Assembly: GCA_021202155.1 (NCBI GenBank)
Contig: JAJQDP010000033.1
Location: 62,001 to 126,000, forward strand
DNA from: Oscillospiraceae bacterium
GTDB lineage: Bacteria; Bacillota; Clostridia; Oscillospirales; Ruminococcaceae
Direction: 5' to 3'
DNA length: 64,000 bases
Each line of letters opens with the position of its first letter. Position 1 is the first letter of the stretch. The translations under genes were made by a program, and so were the position numbers. Below the pieces are notes generated by a model. It made no database searches. It saw only the letters and a list, made by a program, of their open reading frames with translations, and was not told where the DNA came from. This document shows positions 1 to 52,400 of the stretch, piece after piece.

Positions 1-887
1 GTTACATCAGCATAACAATTTGACACCGTTGCGTTGCAAATACTTCCACAAATGCCTCCTATATCATCGTTGCTACTCCCTGATATATAAATATTATGAG
101 TTGAACAATTAGTAATATTACCACGATCAGCACTTCCACAAATACCGCCAATTTCACTATCGTAATTTAAAATCACTGATTGAGCAACATGACAATTATC
201 AATCGTTGCATAGTATCCTAAACTCCTCGAAATCACTCCAAATACATAGATTGTAGTTTTTTCCAAATCATAGTTGAAGTATGAACAAACACAGTTAAGA
301 TTCGATACCGTTCCCGAAAAATCTTCATCCTGCGATATTGCGTAAAATAAGCCTTCACAGCTTCCGCATATGCCATAAATTGTATGTCCATTTCCGTCAA
401 AGCTTCCGGAAAACTTTCCTATAGAAGTCCATTCATTTGTCCAGTAATCGCCAATATTCTCGTTAGCTTTAAGGTCATCGAAATTCCAATAGCTAATATC
501 ATTTAACATAATGTCGTTAGTCAACTCAAAGTATACTCCGCTAAATGTTACACCATTATTTGTATCATACGAAAGCTTTGCTAACTGCTCTGCTGTTGCA
601 ATTTGATATGGGTTATCTATACTTCCATTACCACCGGCGTAACTCTCAGCAATACTGCCATCCCAAACATTCAGCGTTTCTATAGCTTCCTTTGCTTTTT
701 CTTCAACGCTCTTTTCCTCAGCAATAACTTCTTCATCTTCAACTACTGCTTCTATAGAATCGTTATTATCCTTCTTTTCATCGGATGTCGAACTTGTAAT
801 ATCCCCTGTTTCACTTTGCACTCCACATCCCACAAACATTGAAACCATAACTAAAACCACAAGCACCATTGCCAATAACTTTCTCAT
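1..887 (-). CDS. GLUG-motif surface lipoprotein (partial, 3' end outside window)
   Basis: This open frame has no stop and runs off the left edge, so only the N-terminal ~295 residues are visible. The start is the ATG at 887, nine bases after AGAAGG. The protein opens with a lipoprotein signal (MRKLLAMVLVVLVMVSMFVGC, Cys about residue 21), then an acidic Ser/Glu linker. Next comes the signature of secreted Clostridial repeat proteins: a W-D-G...NPYQIATAEQLAKLS segment, then GSFDGNGHTIYGI, then repeats of the form IGGICGS..N[IV][TS]NC spaced about 30 residues. These match the GLUG motif of adhesin-like proteins and predict a beta-helix. It is presumably anchored on the outer face of the membrane; ligand unknown. 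A structured leader with its own terminator precedes it (920-1110). Confidence 0.8.
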   Translation of the reverse strand, partial: MRKLLAMVLVVLVMVSMFVGCGVQSETGDITSSTSDEKKDNNDSIEAVVEDEEVIAEEKSVEEKAKEAIETLNVWDGSIAESYAGGNGSIDNPYQIATAEQLAKLSYDTNNGVTFSGVYFELTNDIMLNDISYWNFDDLKANENIGDYWTNEWTSIGKFSGSFDGNGHTIYGICGSCEGLFYAISQDEDFSGTVSNLNCVCSYFNYDLEKTTIYVFGVISRSLGYYATIDNCHVAQSVILNYDSEIGGICGSADRGNITNCSTHNIYISGSSNDDIGGICGSICNATVSNCYADV

Positions 888-919
888 AAACATCATCCTT
901 CTAATATATTTTTGCGCAA

Positions 920-1076
920 TAAAAAATGCGCCCCAATAAGAGACGCACGAAAAAGTGAATCCCTCATTGTTGCCACACAATCTCATAGCGTATAAACTGG
1001 AATGAGTAAAGAGAGACATCACCTTTTACCAAAGGTGGCATCCCAATTTATACGCAGACTATTAGATTATGTGGCA
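920..1076 (-). ncRNA. structured leader or small RNA upstream of the GLUG lipoprotein
   Basis: A consensus sigma-A promoter (1082-1110) predicts transcription starting near 1075 on the minus strand, exactly at the first base of a long hairpin. Arm 1039-1076 pairs with arm 971-1004 as an 18-bp helix, a 4-nt bulge and a 16-bp helix. A smaller hairpin (CACCTTT/AAAGGTG) sits in the apical part. Three of the four differences between the arms become G-U pairs only in the minus-strand RNA, which supports that strand. An intrinsic terminator follows at 921-947 and the lipoprotein ATG lies about 40 nt beyond. It could be an attenuating leader or an independent ~150-nt RNA. I do not recognise the family. 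Confidence 0.65.
921..947 (-). terminator. intrinsic terminator inside the leader of the GLUG lipoprotein gene
   Basis: In minus-strand RNA, TGCGTCTC pairs with GGGGCGCA around a TTATT loop, followed directly by six Us. The downstream TGCGC (about 913-917) could compete for the 3' arm GCGCA, a possible weak antiterminator. Confidence 0.75.
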
Positions 1077-1081
1077 CTTTT

Positions 1082-1110
1082 ATCATACCATAAAGGACTA
1101 ATTTTGTAAA
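1082..1110 (-). promoter_or_regulatory. sigma-A promoter for the 920-1076 RNA
   Basis: Minus-strand -35 TTTACA (1105-1110), 17-bp spacer, -10 TATGAT (1082-1087). The predicted start is at about 1075. Confidence 0.8.
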
Positions 1111-2906: not shown

Positions 2907-2963
2907 AATATCATGTATCATTGTGGACTTCCGTATAGGAGTCTGAAAGGAACGAATCAATTA

Positions 2964-4736
2964 ATGAGTGAGTATAAAACGCTGTGTATGGGCTGTATGG
3001 AGCCTTTGATGGAGGGTCAGGATGTCTGTCCGAACTGCGGACTTAGTGTCAATGCCGGTAATCTGCCCTCATATCTTCAGCCCAAGACAGTTTTGGATTC
3101 GAGATATATTGTAGGAAAGCTAATCAAGAGTAACGGCGAATCAGCCACCTATATCGGCTATGACAACGCCGAATCCCAGAAGGTCACGATAAAGGAATAC
3201 ATGCCCGACGTTATCTGCAGTCGTGCAAAGGGCGGCAGTGAGCTCATCGTCGACCAGAACTACGTCGTTCAGTACAAGAACTACATGTCTGAGTTTACCG
3301 AGCTCAATAAGTCTCTGGCAAGGCTCAGGACCATGTCTCATATCGTCGCACCAATCGACATGTTCGCCGCAAATAACACCGTTTATGCAGTATTCCCGAA
3401 TGTTGAGGGAATAACCCTCCGGCAGTACCTGCAGGACAACGCAGGCGAACTCAGTTGGGATCAGGTGAGAAAGCTCTTCCCTCCGCTTTTAACAACTCTG
3501 GCGTGCATACATAACGCCGGAATTCTGCACAGAGGAATCTGCCTTGACAACATCATAGTAACCGACCGCAATGAGCTCATGCTCACGGGCTTTGCAATCC
3601 CCGAAATAAGAACCGCCAACACCGACCTGGCTCCAGAGCTTTATGACGGCTTCTCTGCACCCGAGCAGTACTCCGCAAGCGAGTGGGAGGGGACATGGAC
3701 GGATGTCTACGCTGTAGCAGCGGTCATGTACAGGATTCTTACCGGCTGTATGCCTCCCGAACCGATGTCAAGAATCGGAAACGACTCTCTCATCGAGCCT
3801 AACAAGATCAATCCCCACGTTCCCGCGAACGTTTCAAAGGTCATAACCCAGGCTATGCGCCTTTCCTGCGAGCAGAGAATTCAGACAATAACCGACTTCG
3901 TCACAAAGCTCTTTGAACAGCCAAGCTATATGACTCAGCTCCCAAGGGGCTCAACCCAGACAATCCCGATTCAGGACACAAAAGACAGGCGTCAGACAAG
4001 TAGCAGTAAGAAGAAAAAGAAGAAGTCGAGTGGCGGAAATATTGCGATGATAATCGGCGCAGTTTTGCTCGTTGCAATTGTTGTAGCGGCCTTTCTGGCA
4101 CTGATTTCAATGCTTCTTCCAGAAAGCTCAAGCGACACCGAGACCACAACAGCTTCAACCTCCGCAACAACTGCCGCACCGGTTACAACCGCGGCGACAT
4201 CAGAGACTGAGACCACAGACGTCACCACCGTCTCTTCCGATGAAACCACAACCACAACCGCAACAAGCGGAACTCTCTTCGTAATGCCCAACCTTGTAGG
4301 CAAGAAGTACACCTCCGTTGCCGAAAGCGACACATGGAAGGGAAGACTCGAATTCGAGGTAATATACGACTATTCCGACGAATACGAACGCGGAATCATC
4401 TATGACCAGGACATCCCCGAGGGCACCGACCTCTATCCCGTAACAACAGTCAAGCTCTATGTAAGCCAGGGTCTTGCGGTTGTAGAAATCCCCGACTATA
4501 TGAACGAGGATGGCTCAAGGATGACCAAGGACGAGTACGTAGCACTCTTGGACGAACTCAACATCAAGTATGAGTGTAGAGACCTGGAGACTCCTGACAC
4601 CCTTTCCGGCTATGTCATGGACGTCTACTGCGCCCAGACCGGCGACGGCGTCGGCGGTGAGATAAATGTCAAGGAGGGCAACACTCTCTATGTCGACATA
4701 TCGGTATTTTCGCCTTTGGCTGATGCGGTGGGTTAG
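2964..4736 (+). CDS. zinc-ribbon, protein-kinase-fold, PASTA membrane protein (probable pseudokinase)
   Basis: About 590 residues. In order: an N-terminal zinc ribbon (CMGC...CPNC), a Ser/Thr protein-kinase fold (about 40-320), a Lys/Ser-rich stretch, one transmembrane helix (about 355-385), a Thr-rich linker and two PASTA-like domains (MPNLVGKKY at about 440, then IPDYMNEDG). The subdomain II lysine (TIKEYMP) is kept. The catalytic loop reads HRGICLDN instead of HRD..P.N and the DFG position reads LTGF, so both catalytic aspartates are missing and the glycine loop is eroded. A sensor or scaffold that binds cell-wall fragments outside and a partner inside is the likely role. The start at 2964 is chosen because the promoter places the upstream ATG at the transcription start. 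Confidence 0.8.
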   Translation: MSEYKTLCMGCMEPLMEGQDVCPNCGLSVNAGNLPSYLQPKTVLDSRYIVGKLIKSNGESATYIGYDNAESQKVTIKEYMPDVICSRAKGGSELIVDQNYVVQYKNYMSEFTELNKSLARLRTMSHIVAPIDMFAANNTVYAVFPNVEGITLRQYLQDNAGELSWDQVRKLFPPLLTTLACIHNAGILHRGICLDNIIVTDRNELMLTGFAIPEIRTANTDLAPELYDGFSAPEQYSASEWEGTWTDVYAVAAVMYRILTGCMPPEPMSRIGNDSLIEPNKINPHVPANVSKVITQAMRLSCEQRIQTITDFVTKLFEQPSYMTQLPRGSTQTIPIQDTKDRRQTSSSKKKKKKSSGGNIAMIIGAVLLVAIVVAAFLALISMLLPESSSDTETTTASTSATTAAPVTTAATSETETTDVTTVSSDETTTTTATSGTLFVMPNLVGKKYTSVAESDTWKGRLEFEVIYDYSDEYERGIIYDQDIPEGTDLYPVTTVKLYVSQGLAVVEIPDYMNEDGSRMTKDEYVALLDELNIKYECRDLETPDTLSGYVMDVYCAQTGDGVGGEINVKEGNTLYVDISVFSPLADAVG

Positions 4737-6034: not shown

Positions 6035-6388
6035 TTTTTGAGCGTGTTCATCATTAACCCCAAAAGAGTAGGAAACCGAGCGTTATAGTGCCACAGGAAC
6101 GGGGAGTTGTCCTGCGGACGAAATGGCGTAGCCCTGCGGTTCGGTTTTCGCATCCCGCTTATTTGTGCAACAGGTTTGCAAGCAAACCTGCTCAAGTTCG
6201 CAAGCGAACTTGACGGGCTTGTAGACAAAGCTGAACAAGTTCGTAAATGAACTTGCAGGTTCGCAAGCAAAGCTGGACAAGTTCACGAGCGAACTTGACA
6301 GTATTGCAGACGAACCTGAGGAATCGCAAAAACAATAATCCTTCTGCACTATAAGTCAGCTTTAAAAATAGTGTAGGAGGATTTTATT
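6035..6388 (+). other. 354-bp non-coding region with palindromic repeats
   Basis: No intact gene. It contains the palindrome-rich block at 6083-6354 and, near 6374, the ribosome binding site TAGGAGGA of the next gene. No convincing promoter is seen. Confidence 0.6.
6083..6354. repeat. block of ~21-22-bp palindromic repeats bounded by a 9-bp inverted repeat
   Basis: TTATAGTGC (6083-6091) recurs inverted as GCACTATAA (6346-6354). Between them, from 6172 to about 6320, seven imperfect palindromes such as AAGTTCGCAAGCGAACTT and AAGTTCACGAGCGAACTT repeat every 20-22 bp. Read in the plus direction they encode coiled-coil-like heptads (KFASELDGLVDKAEQ, then after a +1 shift KFVNELAGSQAKLDKFTSELD). 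It is either a decayed coiled-coil gene fragment or a small non-autonomous mobile element. No clear target-site duplication was seen. Confidence 0.5.
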
Positions 6389-8275: not shown

Positions 8276-10609
8276 GTGACTAATTTTGATAGAGCATACC
8301 CCGCGGCAGACTATACCGACGAAGCAATAAACGCAATAAGGCAGGCTGTGAAGATAGCCTCCGACCTCGGTCACACCTATGTCGGAACAGAGCATCTTCT
8401 TCTTTCTCTTCTCAAGGACATCCCCGCCCATGCCGCCGGCGAAATTCTCTCGAACTACGGCGTGAGCTACCAGTCGGTCAATAAGAAGATAATCGAGATG
8501 GCTGGCAAGGGCTCGAAGAAAACCAATTTGGACACCGATTCGTTCACCCCTGCGGCTAAACGTTGCCTTAAATTCGCAAAGAAGACGGCGATTGACCACG
8601 GCACCGACAAGGCCGGAACCGAGCATATCCTCTATGCCATCTTAGGTCAGCAGAACTCCACCGCCGGCTGTGTCTTAGGAGAACTCACCGGAAACTCTTC
8701 CAGAATATTCGCCGCAACTGCCGAAGTGATAGAGAGCGAGGGGAGGAGCCAGCCTGAACATCCATACCGAAGCCAGCCGAAAGCCCCGAACCTTGAGAAA
8801 TTCGGCTTTGATATGGTAAGAAAAGCTACCCTCGGCGAGTTCGACCCATGCGTCATGCGTGAAGCGGAGCTCGAAAGAATTGTGGGAATACTTCTCCGCC
8901 GGCAGAAAAACAATCCCTGTCTCATCGGCGAAGCAGGGGTGGGGAAGACGGCGGTTGTTGAAGCACTTGCCGGGAGAATCGCCGACGGAAACGTCCCGGA
9001 ACAGCTTCTGAACACGAGGATATATTCTCTAAGCCTCACCCAGCTTTTGGCTGGTGCAAAATATCGCGGAGATTTTGAGGAACGCCTCAAGTACTGCATC
9101 GACGAAGCCGCCACCATCGACGGTATAATCCTCTTCATCGACGAGATTCACATGCTCATCGGTGCAGGCGCGGCTGAGGGCGCAATAGATGCGGCGAACA
9201 TCCTGAAGCCGATGCTCGCACGTGGTGAAATCCGGGTAATCGGCGCGACGACCTATGACGAATACCGCAAGACCATTGAAAAGGACAAAGCACTTGACCG
9301 AAGATTTTCAACAGTCCGCATCGATGAGCCTGATGAAGCCACAGCAATATCTATGCTCATACGCCTGAAGCCGAAATACGAATCCCATCATAATGTCCGC
9401 ATATCCGACGAAGCGATAGAAAAGGCAGTCGAGCTCTCAAGCTACTGTATTCCTGACAGATACCTGCCAGATAAGGCGATAGATATTTTAGATGAAGCCT
9501 GTTCATCTGTAAAGCTGAATGCTTTTACAAAAAGCAGAAATAAGTCGAAGCTTGAGCCGAGCCTCACCGGATTAGCCACAGAGGGACTGTCTGAGAAGTA
9601 TCTCAGCGAACTGAGCAACCGTGTCGGCACACCAACAGTCACCGGCGCGGACATAGCAAGGTGCATAGCTTTACAGACCTCCATTCCCGATGAGCAGGAG
9701 CTTATCCGCAGTATCCCACATATCGAAAGCATCCTTAAATCCCGTATAATCGGTCAGGATGAAGCCATAGCTGAGGTCGTGAACGCTCTCCGCCGCTCGG
9801 GTTCTGGTCTCAGAGATAAGAGCCGCCCGATTGCAACTCTTCTGTTCTCAGGACCTACCGGAGTGGGGAAGACCTCACTTGCGAAAGCTGTTTCGGAGGC
9901 ACTTTTCGGCAGTGATGATAAGCTCATCCGCCTCGACATGTCCGAATTCTCCGAGAAGTATTCACTCTCCCGCCTCATCGGTTCTCCTCCTGGCTATGTC
10001 GGAAGCGAAAACGGCGGTGAGTTGACAGAGCGTGTGAGAAAATCTCCGTATAGTGTCGTCCTGTTCGACGAGCTCGAAAAGGCAGACAGAGACGTAATCT
10101 CAATCCTCCTCCAGATTTGCGATAACGGCAGTCTCACCGATTCTCAAGGCAGGCATGTCTCCTTCCGAAACACTGTCGTAATCATGACAACCAACATCGT
10201 CAGTTCTAAATCCACATCATGCGGTTTTATGTCAAGTGAAGTCTCAGACCGTTCTGCTATAGCAAAGCAGTTTTCAAGTGAGCTATTGAACCGGATTGAC
10301 GCTGTCTGCAATTTCAATCGTCTGTCAAGAGATTCCTGCTGTAAGCTGACAAGGCAAATGCTTTCACAGCTCAGTAGGCGTGCCGCAATCGCCGGCGTTC
10401 GCCTCAGCTATGCTGACGGAACGGAGGATCATATTCTTTCAAAGTCGAACACTCAGGAATTCGGCGCACGAGAGATCAAGCGTGTGATAGCTTCGGAAAT
10501 CGAGAATCCTCTTGCCTACGAGCTTTCACTCGGCAGAAGGGGAGAGCTCAGGTGTGAAATAAATAACGGGAAGGCTATGTTCAGAAGAAGCCTCACCATT
10601 TCGGCATAA
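8276..10609 (+). CDS. clpC: ATP-dependent Clp protease ATP-binding subunit ClpC
   Basis: AAA+ unfoldase that feeds proteins to ClpP. 777 residues: a Clp N-domain double repeat (about 1-150), a first AAA module with Walker A GEAGVGKT (about 218) and Walker B LFIDEIHML, a linker, and a second AAA module with Walker A GPTGVGKT (about 525) and VVLFDELEKAD. The start is GTG at 8276 after GTGAGGAA. The usual neighbours ctsR, mcsA and mcsB are absent here. The middle linker (about 410-480) is short and I do not see a clear UVR motif. It is the sole gene of its unit; radA lies convergent. Confidence 0.93.
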   Translation: MTNFDRAYPAADYTDEAINAIRQAVKIASDLGHTYVGTEHLLLSLLKDIPAHAAGEILSNYGVSYQSVNKKIIEMAGKGSKKTNLDTDSFTPAAKRCLKFAKKTAIDHGTDKAGTEHILYAILGQQNSTAGCVLGELTGNSSRIFAATAEVIESEGRSQPEHPYRSQPKAPNLEKFGFDMVRKATLGEFDPCVMREAELERIVGILLRRQKNNPCLIGEAGVGKTAVVEALAGRIADGNVPEQLLNTRIYSLSLTQLLAGAKYRGDFEERLKYCIDEAATIDGIILFIDEIHMLIGAGAAEGAIDAANILKPMLARGEIRVIGATTYDEYRKTIEKDKALDRRFSTVRIDEPDEATAISMLIRLKPKYESHHNVRISDEAIEKAVELSSYCIPDRYLPDKAIDILDEACSSVKLNAFTKSRNKSKLEPSLTGLATEGLSEKYLSELSNRVGTPTVTGADIARCIALQTSIPDEQELIRSIPHIESILKSRIIGQDEAIAEVVNALRRSGSGLRDKSRPIATLLFSGPTGVGKTSLAKAVSEALFGSDDKLIRLDMSEFSEKYSLSRLIGSPPGYVGSENGGELTERVRKSPYSVVLFDELEKADRDVISILLQICDNGSLTDSQGRHVSFRNTVVIMTTNIVSSKSTSCGFMSSEVSDRSAIAKQFSSELLNRIDAVCNFNRLSRDSCCKLTRQMLSQLSRRAAIAGVRLSYADGTEDHILSKSNTQEFGAREIKRVIASEIENPLAYELSLGRRGELRCEINNGKAMFRRSLTISA

Positions 10610-10651
10610 TAAAACAGGCGACTGTAAAGCCACCTGCCATTACAACTGTAT

Positions 10652-12031
10652 TCAATCCAAAGCCGCACTGAATGCCTGCCGGAGGTTTGATACCGGGACA
10701 ATCTGAATCTTGTGCCCGCCCTGGATTCCGCTCATGCCGCTCCTTGGAATGATGCACTTCTCAAATCCGAGCCTCTCTGCTTCTTTTATCCTCTGCTCAA
10801 GGTGGGAAACGCTTCTCAGCTCTCCTCCCAAGCCAATCTCCCCGAACGCTATAACATCGTCGCCAATCGGCTTGTCTTTGAGGGAAGAGTATAACGCCAA
10901 TGCAACCGGCAAATCTGCCGCCGGCTCGTTGATTCTGAGTCCGCCAACAATGTTGACGTAAATATCAAGGTTTCCGAAGTAGAACCCGATTCTCTTTTCG
11001 AGTACCGCCGTAATCAGCCAGACCCTGTTGTAGTCGAAACCAGATGCCGACCTCCTCGGAACCTGTAAGCCTGATTTAGTGACAAGTGCCTGAACCTCCG
11101 CCAAAATTGGGCGAGAGCCCTCCATAACACAAGCAACACAGCACCCTGAGACACCCGTCGGTCGCCCCTCAAGAAGCATCTGCGAAGGATTCTTGACCTC
11201 AACGAGCCCGGAATTCTGCATGTCAAACATTCCGATCTCATTGGTAGAGCCAAATCTGTTCTTTGCCGCACGAAGAATTCTGTATGAAAGATTTCTTTCT
11301 CCCTCAAAGTAGAGAACTGCGTCGACAATATGCTCCATGACCTTAGGACCGGCAATCGCGCCGTCCTTGTTGACGTGCCCGACGATGAAGAAGGGAATCT
11401 CCTCTGATTTCGCCGTTCTCATGAACAGAGATGTGCACTCCCTCACCTGCGTAATAGACCCTGCCGACGAGTTCAGGTCATTAATCGACATTGTCTGAAT
11501 CGAGTCGATGATGACAATATCCGGTTTGTTTTTTGATATGGTTTCGCAGATTGACCGCGCGTCCGATTCCGCCAAGAGATATAGATTCTCGGTAGTAACG
11601 CCTAAGCGTGAAGCCCTCAGCTTAATCTGCCTCACCGACTCCTCGCCAGAGACGTAAAGAATTTCTTTATCCCTGCCTAAGTATTCGCAAATCTGCAAGA
11701 GAAGCGTCGACTTTCCTATGCCCGGCTCGCCGCCGATGAGGACAACCGACCCTTTGACGAGACCTCCGCCCAGAACCCTGTCGAGTTCAGAAATTCCCGT
11801 GTGGTATCTCGTCTCGTTTTCCTTGTCGATAGGGTCTGAGAGATTTACAATCCTGTCGGCTAAATCCACTCCGCCGGGACTTCCCTTTGAAAAGCTTGAA
11901 GACTTTACAGCGGGCTGGAGCGTTACCTCTTCAAGAGAGTTCCACGCTCCACAGTTCGGGCATTTTCCGTTCCATTTCGGAGTTTCCGCGCCGCACTCGC
12001 GGCAGACATAGGCTGTGCTGGATTTAGCCAA
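10652..12031 (-). CDS. radA: DNA repair protein RadA
   Basis: Branch-migration ATPase in recombinational repair. 459 residues, matching B. subtilis RadA. Visible are the N-terminal zinc finger (CREC...CPNC), Walker A GGEPGIGKS, the RadA-specific KNRFG motif and a C-terminal Lon-like domain. The start is the TTG at 12031, nine bases after GAAAGGA; it gives MAKSSTAYVCREC, the expected family N-terminus. Upstream TTG and ATG at 12049 and 12040 overlap the ribosome binding site. It lies 26 bp after cwlD, probably co-transcribed. Confidence 0.95.
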   Translation of the reverse strand: MAKSSTAYVCRECGAETPKWNGKCPNCGAWNSLEEVTLQPAVKSSSFSKGSPGGVDLADRIVNLSDPIDKENETRYHTGISELDRVLGGGLVKGSVVLIGGEPGIGKSTLLLQICEYLGRDKEILYVSGEESVRQIKLRASRLGVTTENLYLLAESDARSICETISKNKPDIVIIDSIQTMSINDLNSSAGSITQVRECTSLFMRTAKSEEIPFFIVGHVNKDGAIAGPKVMEHIVDAVLYFEGERNLSYRILRAAKNRFGSTNEIGMFDMQNSGLVEVKNPSQMLLEGRPTGVSGCCVACVMEGSRPILAEVQALVTKSGLQVPRRSASGFDYNRVWLITAVLEKRIGFYFGNLDIYVNIVGGLRINEPAADLPVALALYSSLKDKPIGDDVIAFGEIGLGGELRSVSHLEQRIKEAERLGFEKCIIPRSGMSGIQGGHKIQIVPVSNLRQAFSAALD

Positions 12032-52238: not shown

Positions 52239-52255
52239 CAAAATATAATAAAACC

Positions 52256-52400
52256 CTTATCAAGAGCGGTGGAGGAATCTGGTCCTATGAAGCCCGGCAA
52301 CCTGTTTTCAAGGTGCATAGTTGCGTAGCAACTGTATCCAGCGGTTTAACCGAAAGATGAGGAAACTGAGATTTTTCCGCACCCGGTTATCCGAGTGCGG
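52256..52400 (+). promoter_or_regulatory. SAM-I (S-box) riboswitch with terminator
   Basis: The aptamer (52256-52362) carries the S-box core: CTTATCAAGAGCGGTGGAGG, then TGAAGCCCGGCAACC, and closes with GATGAG. The expression platform is a strong terminator hairpin, CCGCACCCGG (52377-52386) with CCGAGTGCGG (52391-52400), then TTCTT. SAM binding should turn metK off. Confidence 0.96.

Follow-up and report, generated by a model that had tools for sequence, protein, structure and literature searches.

The RNA encoded on the minus strand from about position 1075 to position 921 of the window (the whole stretch of 64,000 nucleotides of Oscillospiraceae contig JAJQDP010000033.1 that was analyzed) is, in our judgment, probably the 5' leader of the mRNA of a lipoprotein gene, and a member of a large and apparently uncatalogued family of transcription attenuation leaders of Clostridia. 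That these RNAs are terminator/antiterminator leaders is well supported by sequence comparison, and through this switch they probably turn the downstream genes on or off. The comparison lends support to the stem P1, the stem V, the two alternative pairings of a switch strand (D), the terminator, the promoter, and the location immediately upstream of a gene; what we infer is the direction in which the switch acts, a trigger and its nature, and expression. The RNA runs through P1, V, an apical hairpin, a linker, D and the terminator, and its parts are as follows, in the order of transcription.

1105 to 1110, minus strand: -35 box, TTTACA
1082 to 1087, minus strand: -10 box, TATGAT, with TGG just before it and a spacer of 17 nt from the -35 box
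1063 to 1075, minus strand: 5' arm of P1, its first base at about the transcription start; pairs with 985-972
1039 to 1055, minus strand: 5' arm of stem V, variable in sequence; pairs with 1004-988
1031 to 1037, minus strand: A5, the 5' strand of the apical hairpin (-8.9 kcal/mol); pairs with 1026-1020
1011 to 1027, minus strand: A3, made up of the 3' side of the apical hairpin and of the UCUCUC after it; alternative partner of D
988 to 1004, minus strand: 3' arm of stem V; pairs with 1055-1039
972 to 985, minus strand: 3' arm of P1; pairs with 1075-1063
967 to 971, minus strand: linker, AACAA (family consensus AgCAAt)
950 to 966, minus strand: D, the switch strand; its partner is A3 or the 5' half of the terminator
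940 to 948, minus strand: T5, the 5' half of the terminator and the partner of D in the antiterminator
927 to 934, minus strand: T3, the 3' half of the terminator
921 to 926, minus strand: U-run of the terminator (U6); the terminator itself spans 948-927
897 to 902, minus strand: ribosome binding site, AGAAGG, read from the sequence
3 to 893, minus strand: GLUG-type lipoprotein gene behind the RNA, extending past the left end of the window

A sequence-only reading of this DNA had proposed a minus-strand promoter that starts transcription at a two-part helix, a capping hairpin, and a terminator shortly before a lipoprotein gene. All of these parts were recovered: both promoter boxes are present, and the first base of P1 (1075) lies at the transcription start expected from its position relative to them. 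The two-part helix corresponds to P1 plus V; V has 17 pairs by eye, two of them G-U. By eye we also found three G-U pairs and one mismatch among the four arm differences, in agreement with the proposal that three of them are G-U compatible on the minus strand. The distance of 40 nt between terminator and start codon had to be corrected, as the first ATG (MFM) at 893 lies 27 nt past the U-run. Folding of the minus-strand RNA yielded -74.1 kcal/mol, compared with -37.8 +/- 4.0 for shuffled sequences (z = -9.05; none of 200 shuffles as good). The plus strand also folds better than its shuffles because the repeat is inverted (-52.1 versus -28.7; 0/200 as good), but more weakly than the minus strand. 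The pairing energies in the window are -17.6 kcal/mol for the A3:D duplex, -16.6 kcal/mol for the antiterminator hairpin, -13.4 kcal/mol for the terminator and -8.9 kcal/mol for the apical hairpin. The encoded lipoprotein has a lipobox read by eye as FVGC, and the protein downstream of the RNA at locus L024, which falls into the same cluster, matches Pfam Glug.

Elsewhere in the window, we noted a THF riboswitch (6062-6162, plus strand; Rfam RF01831, 80.9 bits), a SAM riboswitch (52254-52363, plus strand; RF00162, 52.7 bits), and a gene for a 607-aa protein (2913-4736, plus strand) whose start resembles a zinc ribbon (MGCMEPLMEGQDVCPNCG) and which by eye also has parts resembling a kinase and PASTA.

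The RNA is one of many. BLAST found a 78% copy at another place in the same genome, and 13 of 60 genomes (its own included) had matches; 12 of these belong to the genus and one to a different family. Eighteen BLAST sites, two of them from the window's own genome, were aligned (alignment A1; L018 was left out because its RNA equals that of L010). This alignment, with P1 and the terminator as its structure, served to build the covariance model R1. RNAalifold recovered P1 and the antiterminator from A1; it missed V, which misaligns. R1 matched 20 of 31 genus genomes (E <= 0.01; the list includes seven weak antisense matches, which mirror real sites), 101 of 295 order genomes (E <= 0.01; six of them with a best E above 1e-5), and 82 of 341 class genomes (E <= 0.001), each count including the window's own genome. 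A sample of 348 genomes from the phylum gave no match in the 347 others at E <= 1e-5, only that in the own genome; this sample includes 11 or more members of the class, all without a match, and large samples are searched with stricter filters. Per-genome counts in the large samples are capped by the scoring; a fuller search of eight genomes chosen for having reached this cap returned 8 to 24 matches each, the weakest near E = 1e-3. As 11 of 31 genus genomes and 194 of 295 order genomes had no R1 match, the RNA is not essential in these groups. A pattern that extends from the 3' half of P1 through the linker and the U-run of D into the beginning of the terminator matched at least 117 stretches of named genomes; in loci found in this way, the conservation of all these parts is partly by construction. 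Among the 80 pattern matches listed, the titles are mostly of Clostridia, Oscillospiraceae, Ruminococcus and similar names, with many gut or rumen samples, and two read only 'bacterium' or 'Bacillota bacterium'.

The sequence-only reading had been unable to place the RNA in any common class, and this view was borne out. No Rfam 15 family reached its gathering cut-off at the window site, where weak hits scored at most 17.7 bits versus 72, and none exceeded it at the RNA in 40 further loci. Gut-1 (RF01706) was found in locus L258; it lies at 1200-1276 in a separate upstream array of short hairpins, and the family unit starts at 1501. Weak hits of microRNA models over the L258 unit (31 bits versus 139.7) were taken as chance. 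DNA searches of phage and plasmid record collections gave no match for the window RNA, and the phage record collection gave none for L265:8000-8700. A literature search covering titles and the beginnings of abstracts retrieved no description of the motif, and the passages concerned of PMC11109978 do not describe it. Fremin and Bhatt (2021; PMC8040213) report 3161 intergenic candidate structured RNAs of human microbiomes; no passage of the article text considered describes the motif, and their candidate list may contain the RNA unrecognized. The terminator switch is of a known kind; what appears to be new, within Rfam and the literature searched, is this family, the cassette form it takes and its connection with exchangeable cargo. 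Matched in roughly one in four sampled genomes of the class, with up to 24 matches per genome and no Rfam family, such an RNA would be one of the more frequent regulatory RNAs of gut Clostridia that have yet to be catalogued.

For a comparison of structures, we collected sites from 57 of the 59 loci L024-L082 (L028 and L048 were left out; 61 matches) and from 80 named loci (92 matches). Removal of duplicates left 143 sites and the dropping of one antisense match 142; 111 of these remained without near-duplicates, 109 could be re-segmented (L066 and L043 could not), and 102 were classed as clean, a selection that requires an AAAA partner of D. In a covariation alignment of 92 rows, one of them antisense (alignment A3), which was fitted to the structure under test, 12 of the 13 pairs of P1 carry compensatory changes; P1 and the terminator are 97.3% paired, a value not reached by any of 500 shuffles and compared with 18-61% in slid registers. 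By the R1 matches and these changes, the helix is conserved in relatives. The sequence-only reading had named a lack of such conservation and an Rfam hit as refutations; neither was found, and we regard its observation as confirmed and its interpretation as a structured RNA as supported.

Each pairing was also scored, ungapped, at the 102 clean sites between a site's own partners and those of up to 40 sampled other sites. P1 gave -17.7 with its own partner versus -10.7 with others, A3:D -16.0 versus -10.4 (own partner better than at least 95% of the others in 32/102), and A5:A3 -8.0 versus -5.9 (15/102); in this test, the 3' arm of P1 was located by pairing and A3 by its pairing with D, which favors the own partner for P1 and for A3:D. 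The corresponding values are -14.4 versus -10.5 for D:T5 (21/102) and -16.9 versus -13.1 for T5:T3. Stem V was assessed by rank only, because infinite values spoiled the mean against other partners; its own partner surpassed at least 95% of the sampled others at 97 of 101 sites. A comparison of D with the whole loop region at 111 sites, some of them mis-set, is less biased with respect to A3:D, because the clean set selects for the AAAA partner: here, the own D scored -15.2, the D of other sites -10.5, and shuffled D -7.6, the own D being within the best 5% at 36 of 111 sites. The own loop region was better for D than all 30 of its own shuffles at 88 of 109 sites, and the best partner of D within it holds a run of AAAA at 107 of 109. 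The antiterminator hairpin D:T5 reaches -6 kcal/mol or lower at 101 of the 102 clean sites. Since the pairing with A3 and that with T5 are both kept, D has two exclusive partners. At the same 102 sites, the -10 box matches TATAAT at five or six of six positions in 89 (versus 26 when shuffled) and lies at the same offset in 84, and a -35 box matching TTGACA equally well, 16-18 nt from the -10 box, is present in 60.

These pairings suggest the following course of events. Transcription would start at P1, and the RNA would fold into P1, V and the apical hairpin A5:A3; strand D would be made as RNA polymerase leaves P1. If D captures A3, through some 12-16 bp of putative pseudoknot-like pairing, T5 and T3 would be free to form the terminator and transcription would stop after about 155 nt. 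If A3 is kept in the apical hairpin, D would pair with T5, no terminator would form, and the gene would be transcribed. A factor recognizing the apical GGUAAAA loop and the linker along with the conserved parts of P1 could bias this choice, and it might be a small ligand or a protein.

The position of the units relative to genes fits a leader. We searched for open reading frames with a Shine-Dalgarno (SD)-like motif, a start codon and at least 40 codons; the first start lies at a median of 25 nt past the terminator (123 sites). A same-strand frame of this kind begins within 45 nt of the terminator at 94 of 131 non-tandem sites, compared with 207 of 1967 random positions, and at 8 of the 131 this rule found none downstream. 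A gap of 25 nt leaves no space for a second promoter, and expression should therefore need read-through. Two marks of an attenuation leader are found in this family: a terminator just ahead of a co-oriented gene, and a competing antiterminator kept by own-specific pairing. Counting against a leader are the lack of a common pathway among the downstream genes, the graded nature of the differences between own and other partners, the genomes without a match and the eight non-tandem sites without a frame, and some tandem units with their own full promoter count against a single-transcript leader. The units occur in arrays of two or three; 11 of the 142 sites have a same-strand unit downstream, at gaps of 40-137 nt, and in six of these 11 adjacent pairs the downstream unit has both promoter boxes with five or six of six positions matched (less well in the other five). 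Such complete promoter-to-terminator units would also be expected of a free-standing small RNA gene, whose terminated transcript of about 155 nt would act in trans, with incidental read-through and with tandem copies raising the dose. We consider this improbable; the same-strand starts within 45 nt at 94 of 131 sites speak against it, and the D/T5 complementarity kept at 101 of 102 sites would be needless for a plain small RNA. Attenuation by ribosome stalling on a leader peptide is another way in which a terminator ahead of a gene could be controlled, and an ATG is indeed present between P1 and the U-run of D at 59 of 102 sites. Short frames with an SD motif, a start and at least eight codons occur at 31 of 102 sites, versus 21-32 in ten sets of shuffles; at this chance level we rejected the leader peptide, which we rate as very improbable.

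The genes behind the RNA are diverse. Of the 84 non-redundant downstream proteins with 100 aa or more, 52 are hydrophobic at the N-terminus, compared with 68 of 280 other frames, and 15 have a lipobox, compared with 12 of 280; both calls follow rules of thumb, and the control frames were taken under a stricter SD rule. For database scans, we used 116 of 119 non-redundant downstream proteins, leaving out one of low complexity and two that are very long. These 116 proteins matched 85 Pfam families (LRR_5, 12; Zn_Ribbon_1, 7; HTH_3, 6; DUF6591, 4), among which no common pathway was evident. The downstream proteins matched 134 PHROGs families, headed by two unnamed ones and then by transcription regulators, and the 116 proteins matched 63 PADLOC families, of which the best 25 are headed by HTH-type models but also include strong single hits; PDC-S30 is among the models matched. 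In single PADLOC scans of 20 downstream proteins, 15 were without a hit. As single hits, from which no enrichment is claimed, the defense matches include PD-Lambda-1 for the gene behind the RNA in L058 (186-1475, minus strand; 6.4e-161), the candidate model PDC-S29 for L113 (6.5e-74), and mad3 for L033 (4.2e-24), an ABC-type ATPase by its start; the protein of L081 matched HTH models and that of L142, weakly, a methyltransferase. The RNA often stands ahead of genes for envelope or secreted proteins and of accessory genes without an assigned role, and its trigger would help to show when those genes are used.

A trigger in the form of a trans-acting RNA-binding protein or antiterminator (of the ANTAR, LoaP or another type) instead of a small ligand is possible, if somewhat doubtful; this reading overlaps with our preferred one and differs from it in the trigger alone. 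Patches of conserved sequence in P1, the GGUAAAA loop and the linker are in keeping with it, as are downstream genes without a coherent pathway, and an ANTAR protein is encoded in 29 of the 31 genus genomes. ANTAR proteins are also encoded in 9 of the 11 genus genomes without an RNA match, and their presence does not discriminate genomes with the RNA from those without. ANTAR targets consist of two hairpins with A1/G4 hexaloops, and such a two-hexaloop motif was not seen by eye in the family sequences inspected. LoaP-dependent antitermination was rejected for the genus, as LoaP exceeded the NCBIfam cut-off in none of the 31 genomes and weaker hits also occurred in 13 of 14 control genomes.

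Several known systems resemble the attenuation leader proposed here. Terminating riboswitches have a structured 5' leader with a terminator and a competing antiterminator ahead of the start codon and occur in several copies per genome, and the genes controlled by most metabolite riboswitches share a pathway. With the former, our RNA has in common the structured 5' leader, the terminator/antiterminator near the start codon and the multiple copies; it differs in having neither an Rfam class nor a common gene pathway, in that some tandem units have their own promoter, and in that the gene changes at one locus. T-box leaders are likewise multi-copy terminator/antiterminator leaders of Bacillota, but no T-box hit was obtained at the scanned sites, and the Pfam families listed contain no common amino-acid genes. 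Tandem arrangements of riboswitches are the subject of a review (PMC9481103).

The change of gene at one locus was seen in nine genomes of the genus, in which the RNA lies between the same left-hand genes (a lipoprotein cluster and, in eight of the nine, a PAS-like cluster; named by eye) and, in convergent orientation, the same HAD-like gene, a marker present in 11 of the 31 genus genomes. Across these nine genomes, the gene after the RNA belongs to five clusters, with the RNA and the flanks kept. The RNAs of genomes G006 and G025 are identical and that of G029 is the same at 152 of 157 positions, yet their genes fall into three clusters. In two genomes, G002 and G027, which carry the RNA at other loci, the promoter of this slot leads straight into a gene that clusters with a phage PASTA family, and the RNA is absent there. 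A varying gene between constant flanks, the same or nearly the same RNA ahead of different genes, and two slots with the promoter, another gene and no RNA would all suit an element acting primarily as DNA, with the long inverted repeat as a site of recombination or cassette exchange and the folding as a by-product. We find this distinctly improbable. The minus strand folds better, promoter and terminator are in register, P1 covaries, and the antiterminator pairing is own-specific; the nine aligned right-hand boundaries of the slot show a terminator-like hairpin and no second repeat by eye, and ordinary homologous recombination in the conserved flanks would explain the exchange.

The terminator/antiterminator leader also occurs in phages. 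Nineteen IMG/VR contigs contain the pattern, and R1 confirmed all 19; several of the contigs are near-identical, so they do not represent 19 lineages. A gene follows the RNA in 16 of the 17 viral contigs compared (two identical contigs were left out). Loci L090 and L115 share thousands of bases with viral contigs and are thus phage-like; they were left out of the comparison between phages and hosts. A DUF4839 family is found behind the RNA in the viral contigs L268 and L273 and in L028, which is a chromosomal copy in the slot and has 430 bases in common with L268; a DUF6591 family in the viral contig L272, in the chromosomal slot L027, and in L074, L080 and L161; and the family of L124 in this locus and in the viral contig L278. 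Eight viral contigs have the PASTA family, whose host members are confined to the two slots that lack the RNA. Phage copies ahead of gene families that also stand behind chromosomal copies tie the RNA to an exchange of cargo between phages and hosts. Together with the multiple copies, the competing pairings of the terminator and the site just ahead of gene starts, this occurrence in phages goes beyond the sequence-only reading. Phage morons are cargo genes that are transcribed independently, and the viral contigs resemble them in that one accessory gene, led by a promoter of its own, lies amid phage genes; they differ in the conserved regulatory RNA, found in host chromosomes too, between promoter and cargo gene. 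One may go further and regard the unit of promoter, sensor and terminator as a portable cassette of about 200 bp for the gated expression of mobile single-gene cargo in Clostridia and their phages, a proposal that we think unlikely, though conceivable. If it were true, genes of the envelope, exclusion or defense type would stay silent until read-through is favored by a cell-wide cue, such as a change in nucleotides or in RNA polymerase linked to infection.

In the viral contig L275, a gene of an endonuclease family comes after the RNA and the gene it leads, and then a gene matching phrog_4291, annotated 'RNA-dependent RNA polymerase'. The latter protein (9020-11896), encoded two small genes away from the RNA-led gene, also matches the Pfam RdRP model weakly. 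Finally, seven sites of the family are at least 200 nt long (207-226 nt; L151, L091, L110, L100 at 4012-4225, L123, L095 and L146) and have a longer V region, which by eye often contains an extra hairpin. Those of L151, L100 and L123 precede a small Cys-rich protein (DITGVELTPG...CCCDECDY), and the same protein is also encoded after four units of normal length.
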